From NCBI GenBank assembly GCA_945952105.1, contig CAMFGZ010000017.1, positions 62,001 through 126,000 of the forward strand: DNA of 64,000 nt, read 5' to 3'. Shown piece by piece: positions 40,231 to 55,119 of the stretch (the stretch's first letter is position 1; the number at the start of each line of letters is the position of its first letter). The translations under genes were made by a program, and so were the position numbers. The notes beneath the pieces are model-generated. The model was not told the DNA's origin, did no database searches, and saw only the letters and a list, made by a program, of their open reading frames with translations. The DNA is from an uncultured Rhodospirillaceae bacterium (GTDB lineage Bacteria; Pseudomonadota; Alphaproteobacteria; Reyranellales; Reyranellaceae).

Positions 40231-41151
40231 CTAAGACGGTGATGTAAAGAACACTCTCCGAGCTTCGTCACTATGAAGATCGTGATGTGCAATGTGGCTC
40301 GCCTTCGGCTTGACCGTAGGAGAGTAAAGTCTGAACGGAAGATTGTCGAAGCAAATCTCGGCAGTAACGGCCGCGATATCTTTGGCGTAGCAATCTGAAA
40401 GTATCTTCATGTTCGTGGATGGAAAACTGTTCTTGAATTCCTTGTTGAATCTAGGTTGGAAGTGCCGAATTAGCGAAGCTTCGTAGAGTGTTGTTCGTTC
40501 CGCTTCGGTTGTATTCCGAAGCTTGTCAAGTCCTTTGGCGATGCGCTCGCTGCCATGCTCTTTGTCTTTCGCAAAAGGATTAATCATGGTGATTATTCGA
40601 TTGGCAGGGACGATCTCAATCATTAGCAGCATCAGCGTGTAGCCTGCGGGGATGCCTTGTACTGCAATCTTTTGCAGCGTTTCATGCTTCTTGAGGCGAT
40701 CCATTGCGTTTCGCGAGCCATCCTCGCCAAATGCTTGACCGATATATAGAACCTCAAAATCATACGTAATTTTTTGCTCGCCAATCAATCGAGCTCGCAT
40801 TGTGTCTTCATTGGGAAATGATTTTCTTCCTTCTTGGTCGACGACATACCATGGCCCTTCCGCGCCACCCATGAATGTCGTTCCTGTGGGCATAGGCCAT
40901 ATAAGGTCGTAGCGTTTACTTAAAATCTCAAATGAAGTGATAAGGTTGCTGCCATCTTGTTTTGCGCCCGAAAAGTCGATCTTGGGAACAAGCCCTATTA
41001 GATAGATGTGGCAAGTCTTAAGCTGATCTTTGTATTTCTTTACGATGTCATCTTGGTAAATGGCGGATGCCGGCATAATCACATTGCTTGTGGCATACAT
41101 GTGAACGGCATGCTCGACATCGAATTTCTTCTTGTCGAATCCTTCGCGCAT
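40231..41151 (-). CDS. Orphan protein with GIY-YIG-like core, in low-GC patch
   Basis: A 306-aa protein in visibly AT-richer DNA than the flanks. The start is the ATG at 41151 with CTGGAG upstream. The middle has FEVLYIGQAFGEDGSRNAMDRLKKH (Y136-I-G, R152, H156) and later YEASLIRHFQPRFNKEFK (E224, N236). This order (YIG, Arg, His, Glu, Asn) is that of GIY-YIG nucleases, although the classical GIY strand is not obvious. The N-terminal 120 residues are unknown. It may be nuclease-related; that is inference. Flanked by the ordinary SDR and GGT genes. No integrase nearby. Confidence 0.6.
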   Translation of the reverse strand: MREGFDKKKFDVEHAVHMYATSNVIMPASAIYQDDIVKKYKDQLKTCHIYLIGLVPKIDFSGAKQDGSNLITSFEILSKRYDLIWPMPTGTTFMGGAEGPWYVVDQEGRKSFPNEDTMRARLIGEQKITYDFEVLYIGQAFGEDGSRNAMDRLKKHETLQKIAVQGIPAGYTLMLLMIEIVPANRIITMINPFAKDKEHGSERIAKGLDKLRNTTEAERTTLYEASLIRHFQPRFNKEFKNSFPSTNMKILSDCYAKDIAAVTAEICFDNLPFRLYSPTVKPKASHIAHHDLHSDEARRVFFTSPS

Positions 41152-49521: not shown

Positions 49522-50487
49522 CTAGGTCTTCACCGGTCCCGGCAAATCGAGCCCCACCCCGCTCAGATGCCCGAAGGTCCGGTGCAGCCGCTCGATCACC
49601 GGGGCGGGCAGCGGCGGCCGCAGGATCGATTCGATGTTGGCCTTCACGTGCGCCCGGTTGCCGGTGCCGAACAGGATGACATCGGCGCCCTGCTCGTGGC
49701 GCGCGTAGCGATAGGCCGCATCGGTGATGCTCTCCGCGCCGCCCTCGGAGACGAGGAAGGCGAGGGGATCGCCGTCCGCGCTCCCCTGGGACAGCACCGA
49801 GGCGTCGAGCCGCCCGTCCTCGACCAGCTTCGCGAACACGGCGCGGCGGTAGGCGTCGTTGCTGAAGATGTTGCGCACCACGAACATCAGCAGCGTGCCG
49901 ATGCCGCGCCGCCGCGTGACCGGGAACACCTTGGTGCGCGCGCCCTGGTTCACCAGGCTGTAGGCCAGCATGATGACCTCCCACGGCGCCTCCTCGATCG
50001 CGCGGGAGAGCATCGCCTGCTCCGGATCGCGCGGCCCCGTCTCGGTGAGGCCGACATGGCGCACTTTGCCCTGCTCCTTCAGCCGCAGCAGCGCCGGCGC
50101 CAGCACGTCGCGATGATGCTCGTAGGAAGCGGGTCCGACTGCATGGAAATGGAAGACGTCGACATGGTCGAGCCCGAGCCGCTTCAGCGACGCCTCGACC
50201 CGCTGCGTCACCGTTTCCGCCGTGTCGTCGGTCTTGAACAACGCCTTGGTCGAGATCACGAGCTTGTCGCGGTCATAGGCTTTCACCGCCGCACCCACGA
50301 TCTCCTCGGTCCCGTAGACCTCGGCCGTGTCGAGGAAGTTCACCCCCAGATCGATCGCCGCCCGCGCGACGGCGACGCACTCCTCAAAGTTCGCCCCACG
50401 CCCCAGCCCGAGCCGGCTGTTACCGCCGCAGCCGAGCCCGGCGACGGAGACGGTGAGGCCGGTGTTTCCGAGGGGGATGTATTGCAT
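49522..50487 (-). CDS. Aldo/keto reductase
   Basis: NADPH-dependent aldo/keto reductase of 321 aa from the ATG at 50487 (preceded by a possible GTG). Start MQYIPLGNTGLTVSVAGLGC. Conserved barrel: ARAAIDLGVNFLDTAEVYGTEEIVG (active-site Asp and Tyr), DKLVISTKA (catalytic Lys), DHVDVFHFHAVGP (His). The C-terminal part has the cofactor segment DVILFGTGNRAHVKANIESI (F-G-T-G-N instead of the usual G-x-x). Its first 30 codons and promoter region are duplicated as a relic at 52264-52430, marking the left edge of the accessory island. Confidence 0.95.
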   Translation of the reverse strand: MQYIPLGNTGLTVSVAGLGCGGNSRLGLGRGANFEECVAVARAAIDLGVNFLDTAEVYGTEEIVGAAVKAYDRDKLVISTKALFKTDDTAETVTQRVEASLKRLGLDHVDVFHFHAVGPASYEHHRDVLAPALLRLKEQGKVRHVGLTETGPRDPEQAMLSRAIEEAPWEVIMLAYSLVNQGARTKVFPVTRRRGIGTLLMFVVRNIFSNDAYRRAVFAKLVEDGRLDASVLSQGSADGDPLAFLVSEGGAESITDAAYRYARHEQGADVILFGTGNRAHVKANIESILRPPLPAPVIERLHRTFGHLSGVGLDLPGPVKT

Positions 50488-50565
50488 CACGAGTTCCTGT
50501 GTGTCCTTGGTAGTGGATACTAGCCGTCGCGCCAGCGCGCTCTGGGCATTAACTCTGCGGATCGG

Positions 50566-51126
50566 TTAGCTTGCTGCAAGAGGAATCCGGCTAGCAGCGA
50601 AACCTAGGTCTAGGTGTCGGCCTCTTTTTCCAGAGTGCTGTTGTTTGAGAAAAAGTTCCCAAGCACAGCGCACGCTCGCCGCCAGATCGAAGGCGTCATA
50701 TTTCTCGCCGTCACTGATAATTGAGAGAGACTCACTATCAGTAAGGTTGCCGCCACCATATGGCGCGTACTCTCGCAGTTCTGTAAACGGCGTTGGCTGG
50801 CTAGGTCGAGAAATTGAATGGTGTTTGTGCGCATTCGCAATATCGCGGCAAAGGCGCATAACGGCACTCTGGGCAAAGAATCTATCGATATTGGTCGATT
50901 GCAGAGCGCCGGTATCGACCAGCCAATCTCTCAGATGAAAAGCGTTCTCGAAAAATGCATACAAGAAGTCGATCTTATCACTCGGCGCGGCATCGCGAAG
51001 GCGATCATGCCACCGGCACATCCGGCTAAACTGCGATTGCCAGCCACCAGTCATGTGCAAGCTCCAGCCCAACTCCGGACTTTTGCCTCGGTAACCTCTA
51101 GTCGTGATAGCGTTCGAGCTTGGCAT
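50566..51126 (-). CDS. Accessory-island gene A, HEPN-like (hypothetical)
   Basis: A 186-aa protein from the ATG at 51126 (an upstream TTG at 51174 could add 16 residues). Lower GC than flanks. Central segment FLYAFFENAFHLRDWLVDTGALQ followed by VMRLCRDIANAHKHHSIS. The pairing of an L-R-D-W helix with R-D-x-x-N-x-x-K-H is a recognisable pattern in uncharacterised HEPN-like helical proteins, where the R/H region is often the RNase site. The C-terminal helix CAWELFLKQQH fits a helical bundle. No catalytic function proven. Neighbouring gene B is on the same strand, 74 bp away. Confidence 0.5.
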   Translation of the reverse strand: MPSSNAITTRGYRGKSPELGWSLHMTGGWQSQFSRMCRWHDRLRDAAPSDKIDFLYAFFENAFHLRDWLVDTGALQSTNIDRFFAQSAVMRLCRDIANAHKHHSISRPSQPTPFTELREYAPYGGGNLTDSESLSIISDGEKYDAFDLAASVRCAWELFLKQQHSGKRGRHLDLGFAASRIPLAAS

Positions 51127-51200
51127 GGTTGAAGCTATATCACCGTCTAGTTGTAGAGGCGAAGAACAGTTCAAATACGTAGAGAAGCTAGGTTGACGGC

Positions 51201-52163
51201 CTACATTTGCGTGCCCATGCGCAATTTTCCATTAACCTCTTCGATGCGCCAGTATCTAACTCCAGTGCAGATGCCGGCAATGGGGTTATTTGGTTTGGTT
51301 AGCCCTTGTGTTTTGAAAAGCTGCTTCATGACATCAGAGGAAATGCGATCTGCTACTCGGATGCTCTTATTGACGGCATGCAACTGTGCGGTGTCGGCAC
51401 TGGCGTAGGCGAGATGCACCTTCTCGGGCAGCCGATATCCTGGAAGGATTTCTACTCCGCTATTAATTGCGGCTAGCTCATTCGCAAATGCGTCGACTAT
51501 GACAACAATTCTCCATCGGGCATCTAGAACGTCGCTGGCAAAAAGCTCCCTGAGACCGATTGCCCAGCCAATCTTCTCTTTTGGCTCTATGAGATTGCGA
51601 AACTCTGCTGCGTATTGGCCTTTGAACTTCACAAGCTTGGGAAATTTAAGTGCAAACTTTTCTGTGATGGCTACGCCCAGTACTGATACCTTGTCATCGC
51701 CGAGCAGGTGTTGACTCGAGTTCGTGTCAAGAGCGATGACGGCGTCGCACGCTTGAAAGATATGGCCCGGATTGATGCTGAAACTACCCGGAATGCCGGG
51801 GACCCAACTAAGCAGCTTGGGCTTTGTGCTCGTTGATTGCCTCTTGCGGAACGTTTCGATGTGATAGCGCAGTGGTCTGACGAAGCGGCCAAGGAAGTCT
51901 TGCGCGACAAGTTCCTTGTTTCCAAACATACCCAACGTTTGTGGTTCCTCGCCCAACCTGAATTCTGCAGTAAGTGCTGTCTCCACACCGTCATCGCGTA
52001 CGTCGATGCGGACGAATCTCGCCGGCCTCGGGAATTTCTGTATAGAAAGTGCATTGTCGGGCATGCGTGATGCCCAATTCGGATCAAGCTGTCGAAGGAG
52101 TTGTTTGTCATCTTTTTCGTTCTTTTTTCGACGCACTTGTCGCCCCTTGTTTGCTACCCGCAC
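51201..52163 (-). CDS. Accessory-island gene B, possible RNase H-fold protein
   Basis: A 320-aa protein, GTG start at 52163, in low-GC DNA. N-terminal 30 residues are basic (RVANKGRQVRRKKNEKDDKQ). Mid-to-C-terminal beta pattern ACDAVIALDTNSSQ (D146), VSVLGVAITE, ARWRIVVIVDAFANEL (D224) and YASADTAQLHAVNKSIRVADRISSDV (D257, D272) resembles the DUF3800/RNase H arrangement of spaced acidic residues on strands followed by an 'LQ..AD' helix. Family not firmly recognised. The fold assignment is inference. Upstream of gene A, same strand. Confidence 0.45.
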   Translation of the reverse strand: MRVANKGRQVRRKKNEKDDKQLLRQLDPNWASRMPDNALSIQKFPRPARFVRIDVRDDGVETALTAEFRLGEEPQTLGMFGNKELVAQDFLGRFVRPLRYHIETFRKRQSTSTKPKLLSWVPGIPGSFSINPGHIFQACDAVIALDTNSSQHLLGDDKVSVLGVAITEKFALKFPKLVKFKGQYAAEFRNLIEPKEKIGWAIGLRELFASDVLDARWRIVVIVDAFANELAAINSGVEILPGYRLPEKVHLAYASADTAQLHAVNKSIRVADRISSDVMKQLFKTQGLTKPNNPIAGICTGVRYWRIEEVNGKLRMGTQM

Positions 52164-52263
52164 TACATTGGATAGCCATACGTTCAGCAGTAAAGGTTAC
52201 GCTGAAGAAGATTGACCTGTAGGTGCTCCGCCCGATCGCGGGTAACTCGTCCGTAACGCACTG

Positions 52264-52430
52264 CTAACCCCTCCAAAGCCACCGCCCATCGCCCATGAAC
52301 GTCGGCCCACGCATTCGTCGGAACTCGCCCCGAGTTCGAGCCGGCTGTGCTGCTGGGGCCCGCGAAGCTGACGTTGGTGTTTCCGAGGGGGCGGTCCATG
52401 GGGGCTCCTGTCGGTTCTTACTAGCGGATA
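52264..52430 (-). pseudogene. Scar fused from aldo/keto reductase start and metallo-beta-lactamase end
   Basis: Within the 383-bp gap 52164-52546. From 52399 leftwards, minus-strand translation gives MDRPLGNTNVSFAG, a decayed copy of the aldo/keto reductase start (MQYIPLGNTGLTVSVAG), with exact DNA matches such as GGTGTTTCCGAGGGGG (52375-52390 versus 50461-50476). At 52264-52320 it switches to the 3' end of the metallo-beta-lactamase at 54590: two frames give RGPTFMGDG and ALEGLA, matching HGPTFKGDG and ALEGLA there, with TGAACGTCGGCCC shared. A frameshift separates the two halves, so it is non-coding. It marks the boundary between the two cassettes of the island. Confidence 0.75.
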
Positions 52431-52546
52431 TCGCCTGTCGCGTCCGCGTGGTCCTTCTTGATGGAACAGAAAAACTCAATCTCGCTTTGCGAGCGGCGTC
52501 CATTGATGGCAGATAAATAGGATCAAACAACTTACTGGGGAGTCGG

Positions 52547-53920
52547 ATGTCTGCTGAGGACTGGGTTGCAGATGTCAACTTTGTTCTGTCGGAATGCGTT
52601 CGATTTCAGCAAGAAGTAGACCGCATTGGGCTTTCAGCATGGCTCAAGAATGCATCACGAAGCGATGCAATGGCCCATTTGCCTCATCCCAGCGGCAAGG
52701 GGTCGCTTCTCTGTGGCATTGAGGCGATTAGGCGTCTTGAGCAGTTGTCGAATGTCGCAATCAGAAATAGCGACGCGCTGGGGACTTTGACCATCGACAG
52801 GGTCTACCAAGCGCTACGTACCCTTATCGTCCATCGCTTTATTCGCGATCAGCGACCTCTAAATGTGCAGCAAGTACAAAAGGCTCTGGCTGCCGCAGTC
52901 CGGGAGGCGAAGAGAGCGCGCTACGACGCAACCCACTTTATCCCTTGCCGGCTCGCTTCCACGTCCGAGCCCGATCAATTCAGCATCGGCCCGGTCGTCT
53001 TCCGCTCACGCGCGGCTTTCTTCGCGCGAATTCGGCCTCAAGTTGATGCACTTGCTGAACGCGGCAAGGCAACAGAGACAATTGAAACTAACGATTGGGT
53101 TCGTATTGAGAGTTATTATGGCGCATTCGACTGGATCGGCGAGGTAAGGATACGCAACTGCGATCCAGACATCTCGGAGGAGCGCGCCCGCCAAGCCGTC
53201 ACAGCGGCCATTGACATTCTTCAAGTGGTCTTCGGTGCTTCGTATACGGAAAGAATGGCAGTTGGAGGCCCGACGATGGCGAATGATCGCCGAGTCCACA
53301 TGCAATTGGGGCGCGACGATGAGTTGCAACTCTCTTGGTCGTGGCGAGCGACATCTCCTGTGGCTCTTCCGGATTTAAGGGACCTGCTAGCGAATTCCGA
53401 GGTGGCATTCCTGCTTGGAAGCGGGGGACAAGCGATCGAGGCGATAATAGATCCTGCTCTCGATAGGCCAATCTCTCGCCGACTTGTAGATGCTGCATCA
53501 TGGTATGGCCAAGCGGTGCGCGAAGAATTTGATGCGGCTCGCATCGTTAAAGCAGTCACCGCTCTAGAACGCTTACTGATGACTGAAGATGTTGCTGACA
53601 TTGCAAGTACGCTTAGCGCTCGAGGAGCTGCACTTGCTTGGCGTCCAACAAGCAGGTTTGATTTCGATGAATGGAAGGGTCGCCTAAAGAAAGCATATGG
53701 CCTTCGGTCGCAGCTAGTGCACGGTTCTCTCTCGCCATTTGATCAGGAAGTTCATCTTCGCTCTGATTGGTGCGTGTGGTTGAGCCAAGAAGTGCTTCGA
53801 GCCGCGTTTGGAGCGTGGAGAGCCGTCTCTGGACTTGATAGACGCGTCTTGGATTCAGATTTAAGCACTTGGTTTGGTCAGCTGGTGAAAAATGCCTCTC
53901 AAGGGAAGATGAATGAGTGA
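52547..53920 (+). CDS. Accessory-island gene C, Apea-like HEPN protein
   Basis: A 457-aa protein, ATG at 52547 with GGGGAG upstream. C-terminal domain (about 330-450) shows the ApeA-like HEPN arrangement: DAARIVKAVTALERLLMTED (long helix), SARGAALAWRP, and EWKGRLKKAYGLRSQLVHGS with R387-x4-H392, the HEPN ribonuclease motif. The N-terminal 330 residues are unknown, mixed alpha/beta. HEPN domains of this type occur in toxins and anti-phage abortive-infection proteins. Transcribed opposite to genes A, B and D. Lower GC than the chromosome. Confidence 0.6.
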   Translation: MSAEDWVADVNFVLSECVRFQQEVDRIGLSAWLKNASRSDAMAHLPHPSGKGSLLCGIEAIRRLEQLSNVAIRNSDALGTLTIDRVYQALRTLIVHRFIRDQRPLNVQQVQKALAAAVREAKRARYDATHFIPCRLASTSEPDQFSIGPVVFRSRAAFFARIRPQVDALAERGKATETIETNDWVRIESYYGAFDWIGEVRIRNCDPDISEERARQAVTAAIDILQVVFGASYTERMAVGGPTMANDRRVHMQLGRDDELQLSWSWRATSPVALPDLRDLLANSEVAFLLGSGGQAIEAIIDPALDRPISRRLVDAASWYGQAVREEFDAARIVKAVTALERLLMTEDVADIASTLSARGAALAWRPTSRFDFDEWKGRLKKAYGLRSQLVHGSLSPFDQEVHLRSDWCVWLSQEVLRAAFGAWRAVSGLDRRVLDSDLSTWFGQLVKNASQGKMNE

Positions 53921-53956
53921 ATTGGATCGAGGCTCAGATGCGGGCCATTTACGCAA

Positions 53957-54544
53957 TTAGAATTGCGCCTCGATTTCCAACTGCCACGTAGTGAAGATTT
54001 CAAAGACCAGGTCGGCGCGTCGTCTAACTATACCGAGGTTGATAAGCGACCACTCTTTCAGATGCTGCTCGCCCCTGATGCTGTCGGGGTAGCGGAAGAT
54101 GATTCCCTTAGGGTCGATTTCAGAGAAGTCCTTGATAGTGTCCGAGATCATCTGAATTTGATCATCTTTTGGAACCAAACTGATCTTCCGCGCCGCAGTG
54201 AGTGCGGCTTCCCAGTTATTTTCTAGGCTGTGGTTGGCCTGAAACTTGAGATTTGGGGCGTCTAGCAATTCTGAATATGCTGCTACAAGATATTTTATGA
54301 ACAACTCAATGCTGTGACGAAAGTTGTAACAAGCCGGGTAGACGAGTGTATCTACTGCGACGCCCATTTCTTGGTGATCAGCGGCAGCTAGAATTTTCTT
54401 CGTTGCGGCAAAGTATCCGTGAGCGTAGTCGAAAAGATCATACCGGCCACCATTGTCGCCAACGCATGCATTGAGTCCTGCAGCATTGAAATCCCCTCTG
54501 AAGAGACTGTTGCTGCGATACTTTGGGCCGAATTCTATCGCCAT
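53957..54544 (-). CDS. Accessory-island gene D, HEPN-like hypothetical protein
   Basis: A 195-aa protein, ATG at 54544. The segment TLVYPACYNFRHSIELFIKYLVAAY with NHSLENNWEAAL is a helical F-R-H-x-x-E-x-x-x-K-Y-L then H-S/D-L pattern found in HEPN/MNT-antitoxin-related helical proteins. N-terminus MAIEFGPKYRSNSLFRGDF is unlike any family I know. In low-GC DNA (one 60-bp line counted: 28/60 G+C). Convergent with gene C, 36-bp gap, and upstream of the truncated metallo-beta-lactamase. Confidence 0.5.
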   Translation of the reverse strand: MAIEFGPKYRSNSLFRGDFNAAGLNACVGDNGGRYDLFDYAHGYFAATKKILAAADHQEMGVAVDTLVYPACYNFRHSIELFIKYLVAAYSELLDAPNLKFQANHSLENNWEAALTAARKISLVPKDDQIQMISDTIKDFSEIDPKGIIFRYPDSIRGEQHLKEWSLINLGIVRRRADLVFEIFTTWQLEIEAQF

Positions 54545-54589
54545 GCTCTATCTCGCTCGTTTCAAGGAAACTGACTCTCAACCGCGGCT

Positions 54590-54976
54590 TTACCGCCGAG
54601 AGTAGTAATCCGCCAACCCCTCTAACGCCCCAGCCCCATCGCCCTTGAACGTCGGCCCGTGCATCAGCGCGATCGTCGTCGGCCTCAGCGCGGCCAGCCG
54701 TCGTAACGTCGGCTCTGCCATCGGTGTCGGCGGCATGAACGGCAGGCGTTCGGCGACCGCGATGGCGGGGGCGACGATGTCGCTTTCGGTGATGGGATCG
54801 GCGGGGCCGGTCTGGGTGAAGAGGTCGCTGCTGAACAGCGTGCCGGTCGTCTCCTCGTAGATCAGGCCGGCGTCCCAGCTGTGCGGGACGTGCGGCGTGT
54901 CGAGCCAGCGGACCCGCTTGCCGCCGAGGTCGAGGACCTCGTTGTCCTTCAGCGCGCGCGGTGGGCGGTCGGGCCG
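54590..54976 (-). pseudogene. N-terminally truncated metallo-beta-lactamase fold gene
   Basis: Only the last about 128 codons of an MBL-fold protein remain: RPDRPPRALKDNEVLDLGG, WLDTPHVPHSWDAGLIYEE, LFSSDLFTQTGPADPITES, ALMHGPTFKGDGAGALEGLADYY. The usual N-terminal HxHxDH half (about 100 residues) is absent; a family 2 palindromic repeat starts at 54971 instead. The frame stays open through the repeat, and an ATG at 55096 could make a 168-aa chimera, but it would lack the metal-binding half. The last 25 codons are duplicated at 52264-52320. Right flank of the accessory island. Confidence 0.75.
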
Positions 54977-55043
54977 AGCGAAGCTCGGCCCGTTGAGCGG
55001 CAGGACATTGCCTTGGCAATGTCCGGGAGCGTCGAAGGAAGAG
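54971..55043. repeat. Dispersed palindromic repeat (family 2)
   Basis: Hairpin GGGCCGAGC/GCTCGGCCC (54971-54991), then TTGAGCGGCAGG, second stem GACATTGCC/GGCAATGTC and ATGTCCGGGAGCGTCGAAGG (to 55043). Same order and near-identical 3' part as 37719-37809. A further hairpin CCCCATT/AATGGGG is at 55091-55106. Confidence 0.75.
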
Positions 55044-55119
55044 GGATCACGCAGGCCTCTGACCCGTCCGTCGCGTATGACGCGACACCTCCCCATTTGA
55101 ATGGGGCGGAGAATGATTC

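Follow-up and report, generated by a model that had tools for sequence, protein, structure and literature searches.

Introduction

Defense hotspots between core genes are known (PMC10250203), and hotspots lacking mobile elements have precedent, with recombination in the flanking genes having been proposed for them (PMC5635113). The locus described here lies between a metallo-beta-lactamase-like gene (MBL) and an aldo/keto reductase gene (AKR) in a 64,000-nucleotide stretch of DNA from an uncultured Rhodospirillaceae bacterium (hereafter, the window). With the mobile-element-free core-gene hotspots of Oliveira et al. 2017 (PMC5635113), this MBL-AKR slot shares variable cargo, fixed flanks and low GC content, as well as the lack of an integrase in the cargo examined and a proposed recombination in the flank genes. 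Unlike those hotspots, the slot contains partial copies of both flanking genes that mark stacked cassettes; a simple double-crossover replacement would leave no such partial copies. The cDHS1 and cDHS2 hotspots of Pseudomonas aeruginosa (PMC10250203) are similar to the slot in their fixed flanks, lower GC content and frequent lack of mobility genes, and in holding many different immune systems along with many genes of unknown kind. The MBL-AKR slot differs from cDHS1 and cDHS2 in being far smaller (0.1-6 kb across the genomes compared), in belonging to another lineage, and in that its variation was seen between species within one genus and not between isolates.

At the protein level, the closest described relatives are members of the HEPN superfamily (PMC3710099), including HEPN-T/AbiV and RiboL-PSP-HEPN. 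Two genes of the slot, termed C and D, share features with this superfamily, C through an Rx4H motif and D through a helical bundle with an Ex3K element and an upstream His; additionally, members of the RiboL-PSP-HEPN family (PF18735) are found in the slots of two congeners. They differ from it in that neither C nor D is matched by any Pfam HEPN model, and D lacks Rx4-6H. The model of D also aligns with HepT of the HepT/MntA toxin-antitoxin pair (PDB 6m6w, 6m6u; probability 0.72, TM 0.53 on the target), but no MNT nucleotidyltransferase lies beside D, and one D relative (locus L077) is near a separate HEPN/MNT pair. A bounded and easily recognized slot of this kind allows candidate defense genes to be picked by location from among unknowns in a little-studied genus, and its flank-gene scars allow the growth of an integrase-free slot to be reconstructed.

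Results and Discussion

Layout and composition of the island

A preliminary description of the window reported four low-GC genes between AKR and a truncated MBL, in the order A and B (minus strand), a scar, C (plus strand) and D (minus strand), and the ORF coordinates agree with this layout. AKR (49522..50487, minus strand; PF00248, E=4e-37) starts with the ATG at 50487 and forms the left flank of the slot, and the right flank is formed by the 3' part of MBL (54590..54972, minus strand), the stop codon of which is at 54590. All four genes between them are intact. Gene A occupies an open frame extending to 51174, with a likely extent of 50566..51054 (minus strand, giving a product of about 162 aa), and is followed by the orphan gene B (51201..52163, minus strand, 320 aa), gene C (52547..53920, plus strand, 457 aa) and gene D (53957..54544, minus strand, 195 aa). 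The GC content of the four genes is 0.485-0.539 (GC3 0.51-0.56), compared with 0.685 (GC3 0.91) for AKR and 0.666 for the window. Since C and D are convergent, with 3' ends 36 bp apart, at most A and B can be an operon, and the shared direction of these two genes makes such an operon possible. The motifs that had been reported were found in the translations of A (LRDW and RDIANAHKH), C (R387-SQLV-H392) and D (FRH-SI-E-LFI-KYL). Searches of A-D against Pfam, NCBIfam and PADLOC returned no match at E<1, and the search against PHROGs returned a single match (D, at E=0.05).

The MBL-AKR gap in congeners

Comparison with related genomes revealed that the same gap is variable in about a dozen congeners, with cargo that is unrelated between genomes. 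Of 65 genomes of the genus searched, 59 gave an MBL match (some matches being short and weak), AKR orthologues in congeners have 75-94% DNA identity, and MBL is followed by AKR in a subgroup of the genus; in more distant congeners, AKR has other neighbors, and the GC upstream of it is mostly normal. The two genes bracket variable DNA in genomes G017, G025, G027, G029, G031, G034 (two contigs), G393 and G784; in G015, G034 and G035, the slot is divided between contigs, and several slots are at contig ends. Slot GC is 0.48-0.57 vs. 0.68-0.71 for the flanks, the exceptions being G799 (0.59) and G032 (0.67). The G799 slot is nearly empty, with approximately 130 bp from the MBL stop to the AKR start (L145 2060-2194), the G032 gap contains ordinary high-GC genes, and the gaps of G017 and G029 contain no evident intact gene. 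As a separate observation, the short G799 gap holds a long REP-like palindrome (CTCTCCCCCAAGGGGAGAGG and its reverse complement).

Known defense or conflict genes were detected in the slots of some of these genomes. The G784 slot encodes ABC-3C components (CTD6, E=4e-27; MC2, E=2e-40) and an AAA-like protein, and the G027 slot contains a fused SIR2-HerA remnant (L031 1165-1783; PADLOC HerA E=1.3e-56, SIR2 E=9e-5). This remnant joins the first SIR2 residues to the last ~110 residues of HerA, as in a known defense system shortened by internal deletion. A RiboL-PSP-HEPN gene (PF18735) is present in the G025 slot (E=3e-11, above the cut-off) and adjoins AKR in G035 (E=4e-6, one bit below the cut-off), where a protein kinase gene adjoins MBL on a separate contig. 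Among the 31 genomes of the genus searched, PF18735 was matched at E<0.001 in 4, the G025 slot gene being the sole match over the cut-off; this rarity in the genus makes it unlikely that the HEPN genes at the MBL-AKR site are background. Further cargo comprises an M78/IrrE protein with a PDC-S70-like partner and a weak Nmad2 match (G031), a KRSATTH-containing protein (an Rx4H motif) without a match in Pfam, together with an HNH-like protein weakly matching PtuB (G034), and a GHKL ATPase with a protease-like gene (G393). In G008, MBL is followed by an SNF2 helicase gene and not by AKR.

Because the relatives each hold different genes in the gap, and often phage-defense genes, the gap looks like a chromosomal parking place for defense genes. 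Accordingly, the cargo of the relatives supports defense as the leading hypothesis, as had been suggested from the window alone. Conserved synteny of all four genes with chromosome-like GC was not seen in the relatives, as B, C and D, the genes searched for in congeners, have no counterpart in congener slots and slot GC is low. No integrase or transposase was matched in A-D, and no tRNA, Rfam RNA, attachment repeat or precise attachment site was found near the slot; the search for the integrase and attachment sites of an integron cassette or site-specific element was thus negative, and the insertion edges vary between species. Taken together, we consider it likely that the MBL-AKR gap captures defense and conflict genes in this genus without the help of an integrase, with A-D as the cargo of this species.

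Scars of the flanking genes

Fragments of both flanking genes lie between genes B and C. The MBL' part of this scar (52263..52314, minus strand) corresponds to the ~52 nt at the 3' end of a second copy of MBL and is identical at 44 of 52 positions to the MBL of the window and at 45 of 52 to that of G025, and the AKR' part (52306..52449, minus strand) corresponds to the leader and the initial ~120 nt of the gene in a second copy of AKR, with 118 identities over 143 aligned positions to the AKR of G032. The two parts overlap by 9 nt at the junction, and their alignment scores (50 for AKR' and 59 for MBL') exceed the maxima of 300 shuffles (30 and 32, respectively). The preliminary description had called these mirrored flank scars; the shuffle results establish the scars of both flank genes as real, and the mirroring has to be dropped, since AKR' and MBL' are in the orientation of the real AKR and MBL and therefore are direct repeats. 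The accompanying proposal of a foreign island of two cassettes is supported by the low GC and by the scar, which separates at least two acquisitions, AB and CD. The MBL gene at 54590 is without approximately its first 109 residues; what remains corresponds to residues ~110-232 of the MBL that is full-length in a congener (94%). Upstream of residue ~110, this gene runs into a 143-nt sequence (54973-55115), an interspersed repeat that recurs near AKR or an adjoining SRPBCC-type gene in G035, G017 and G032.

Two routes would yield the resulting arrangement, MBL-[D,C]-AKR'::MBL'-[B,A]-AKR. Tandem MBL-cargo-AKR copies would yield it once a deletion had removed the 3' part of the middle AKR and the 5' part of the middle MBL, and a closed MBL'-cargo-AKR' molecule would yield it by integrating through one crossover in AKR. 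Foreign DNA with cargo between MBL and AKR ends would enter by recombination in AKR and MBL, either as a circle or concatemer that integrates once or through an unequal exchange that produces a tandem copy, and a short-homology deletion could then leave only AKR'::MBL' between the two cassettes. The gap would on this view be permissive, its cargo being swapped through its two flanking genes, in line with a known principle (PMC5635113). Partial AKR and MBL copies recur across the congeners with differing junctions. The G025 scar has the start of AKR' fused to MBL', the two MBL copies of that genome being 92% identical, and the G015 scar joins ~200 nt of AKR' to part of the BNR gene located upstream of MBL. 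The scars of the window, G025 and G015 look like independent events.

Genes C and D as candidate effectors

The HEPN motif reported for gene C, R387-S-Q-L-V-H392 (53705..53722, plus strand), is conserved in all four family members available, namely C and its distant relatives in G036 (34% over 97 residues), G336 and G247 (both 34%). Across these four sequences, Y384, R387, L390, V391, H392 and G393 are invariant; R-x4-H with G as the next residue constitutes the classical motif of HEPN RNases (PMC3710099). From these conserved residues, gene C is predicted to encode an HEPN-type RNase with a classical site. hhalign shows homology between the C-terminal domain of the C family and that of the G036 protein (probability 91, 0/30 shuffles). 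The relatives of C are few; a scan of the genome collection with C alone found nothing, and in G336 and G247, genomes of another family, the C-family genes are directly 3' of a mutS-like gene (L059 892-2022, L060 898-2013). Comparison of C with known HEPN families gave no Pfam match, and hhalign results for ApeA-HEPN and RiboL-PSP were at noise with thin alignments. Assignment of C to ApeA is unsupported, and PF18739 was not found in the genus; matches of the C profile to a fucose-binding lectin (E 1e-4) were disregarded because they came from a four-sequence profile and did not cover the motif region.

Gene D belongs to a widespread family that has no name. Its relatives were found at 39 loci of named genomes, those of Bradyrhizobium at 38-46% and others as far afield as Fibrobacteraceae, Blautia and Moraxella, and in 239 plasmid records, mostly of Escherichia and Klebsiella; near-identical relatives are shared by a Bradyrhizobium genome and a same-class genome, pointing to Alphaproteobacteria as the probable class of the genus, and the genome of the window itself holds a paralogue (L058 1381-1962; G000:C2:12687-13049). 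Most relatives are ~400 aa long, D matching their N-terminal domain. Proteins of ~446 aa from this family, annotated as hypothetical, were noted on an IncF Salmonella plasmid (L063 6950-8296) and on the Klebsiella plasmid pKPN5 (L064 6956-8296), and the paralogue at L058 adjoins a PIN-domain-like (VapC-like) ORF on the opposite strand. Genes near D relatives, picked by eye for testing and without a control set, encode, among others, OLD/AAA_15 ATPases, RloB, SIR2 together with a caspase-helicase, an HEPN/MNT pair, HipA and a DNA methylase; several family members thus lie near defense genes, with no rate claimed.

The AF2 model of D is confident (pLDDT 88.7), and its most probable matches among solved structures are HEPN proteins (2q00, 0.98; 2hsb, 0.85; 4nqf, 0.75; 6m6w, 0.72), although with weak E-values of 0.4-1; the model agrees with the HEPN-like fold that had been suggested. 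Profile-profile comparison of D, and also of A and C, with ApeA, RiboL-PSP and HepT yielded noise, the sequences being too few. In place of the classical Rx4-6H, D has the motif R76-H77-x2-E80-x3-K84 (54293..54319, minus strand), and R76, H77, E80, K84, H105 and D144 are invariant in 31 aligned family sequences. An Ex3[KR] element occurs in many HEPN families, and in HEPN-T/AbiV and AF0298 the classical His is absent and an upstream (N-terminal) His is present (PMC3710099). With its upstream His and Ex3K, D fits an AbiV-like description, which is a resemblance rather than proof.

By analogy with these families, C and D are most likely RNA-targeting effectors of phage or plasmid defense or of toxin modules. 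C with its classical site and D with an alternative site as in HEPN-T/AbiV would be putative RNA-cutting effectors that, once triggered, bring growth or phage replication to a halt, and may be held inactive until released upon infection or plasmid entry, as family knowledge suggests; no MNT-like or other antitoxin gene was recognized next to C or D. A broader reading, offered tentatively, is that the D family is a large HEPN family with the alternative site RHxxExxxK, whose members are carried by hundreds of enterobacterial plasmids and serve on their own as RNases against phages or plasmids, together with an MBL-AKR slot that captures defense genes by integrase-free stacking of cassettes. As an HEPN-like family without a name that is carried on many Escherichia and Klebsiella plasmids and has no Pfam or PADLOC model as searched, the D family is open to direct testing in E. 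coli K-12.

Alternative interpretations

The wording of a system with this composition in the preliminary description was misleading, in that none of the 116 loci compared combines any two of these families and the scar marks at least two separate acquisitions. All four genes do share one slot and a low GC content, but the convergence of C and D, the flank-gene scar that parts AB from CD and the differing ranges of the four families make it extremely unlikely that A-D function together as one four-gene defense system, and the idea was rejected because of the lack of co-occurrence. A neutral landing site, that is, a non-essential gap where foreign genes of whatever kind come and go without any special link to defense, would accommodate the ordinary genes of G032 and the several cargos that are unknown or decayed (G015, G017, G029), and foreign low-GC genes are often defense genes anyway. 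We nevertheless regard this as unlikely given that named defense or conflict domains occur in at least 5 of ~12 occupied slots (G025, G027, G031, G035, G784) and that the only HEPN family checked (PF18735) is rare in the genus. It is quite improbable that A-D are what is left of an integrative element or plasmid inserted by its own, since lost, recombinase: D relatives are common on conjugative plasmids and A relatives occur on plasmids and viral contigs, but A-D match no integrase or transposase, the slot has no tRNA or attachment repeat, the edges of insertion differ from species to species, and the scars are flank-gene fragments with differing junctions. The integrase-free capture slot is the preferred explanation of the locus.

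With respect to the predicted effectors, D (and A) might instead be HEPN-like nucleic-acid binders, antitoxins or regulators without RNase activity, which is a real possibility, though not the one favored here. The absence of Rx4-6H from D is consistent with this role, and for HEPN proteins that lack conserved polar residues, a purely binding role has been presumed (PMC3710099). However, the conservation of R76, H77, E80 and K84 in 31 sequences matches the Ex3[KR] element and alternative N-terminal His of HEPN-T/AbiV (PMC3710099), which argues for D as a putative RNase.

Genes A and B

As part of the cargo of the proposed capture slot, A and B may represent a separate accessory pair. Relatives of A were found on 3 plasmids and 3 viral contigs, and their starts line up with Met41 of A, which makes the ATG at 51054 its more likely start; residues 1-39 of the AF2 model are of very low confidence. 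On the viral contigs (L069, L070 and L071), the A-family proteins sit amid phage genes. The model of A (pLDDT 66) has helices at 44-61, 64-87, 93-102, 104-119 and 161-181, and the family motif is H-L-[KR]-D-W ... C-x-D-[IL]-x-N-x-x-K-H, with H80, D83, W84, D111, N114, K117 and H118 conserved. The earlier assignment of A to HEPN was not supported, as the Arg of RDxxN is not conserved (R110 is Ala in the relatives) and no solved structure was matched above probability 0.25, the HEPN protein 3o10 appearing only at rank 35. A viral-structure search with A returned one match without a name (E=8e-4). For B, suggested earlier as a possible RNase H-fold protein, no credible relatives were found in genomes, plasmids, phages or viral contigs, and a match at E=7e-4 was rejected because it overlaps a glycosyltransferase-like frame. 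Sequence searches of the PDB with A, B and C gave noise. Elsewhere in the window, a second low-GC stretch (40231-41151, minus strand; GC down to 0.456) holds a 306-aa ORF with the look, judged by eye, of a GIY-YIG-type nuclease.
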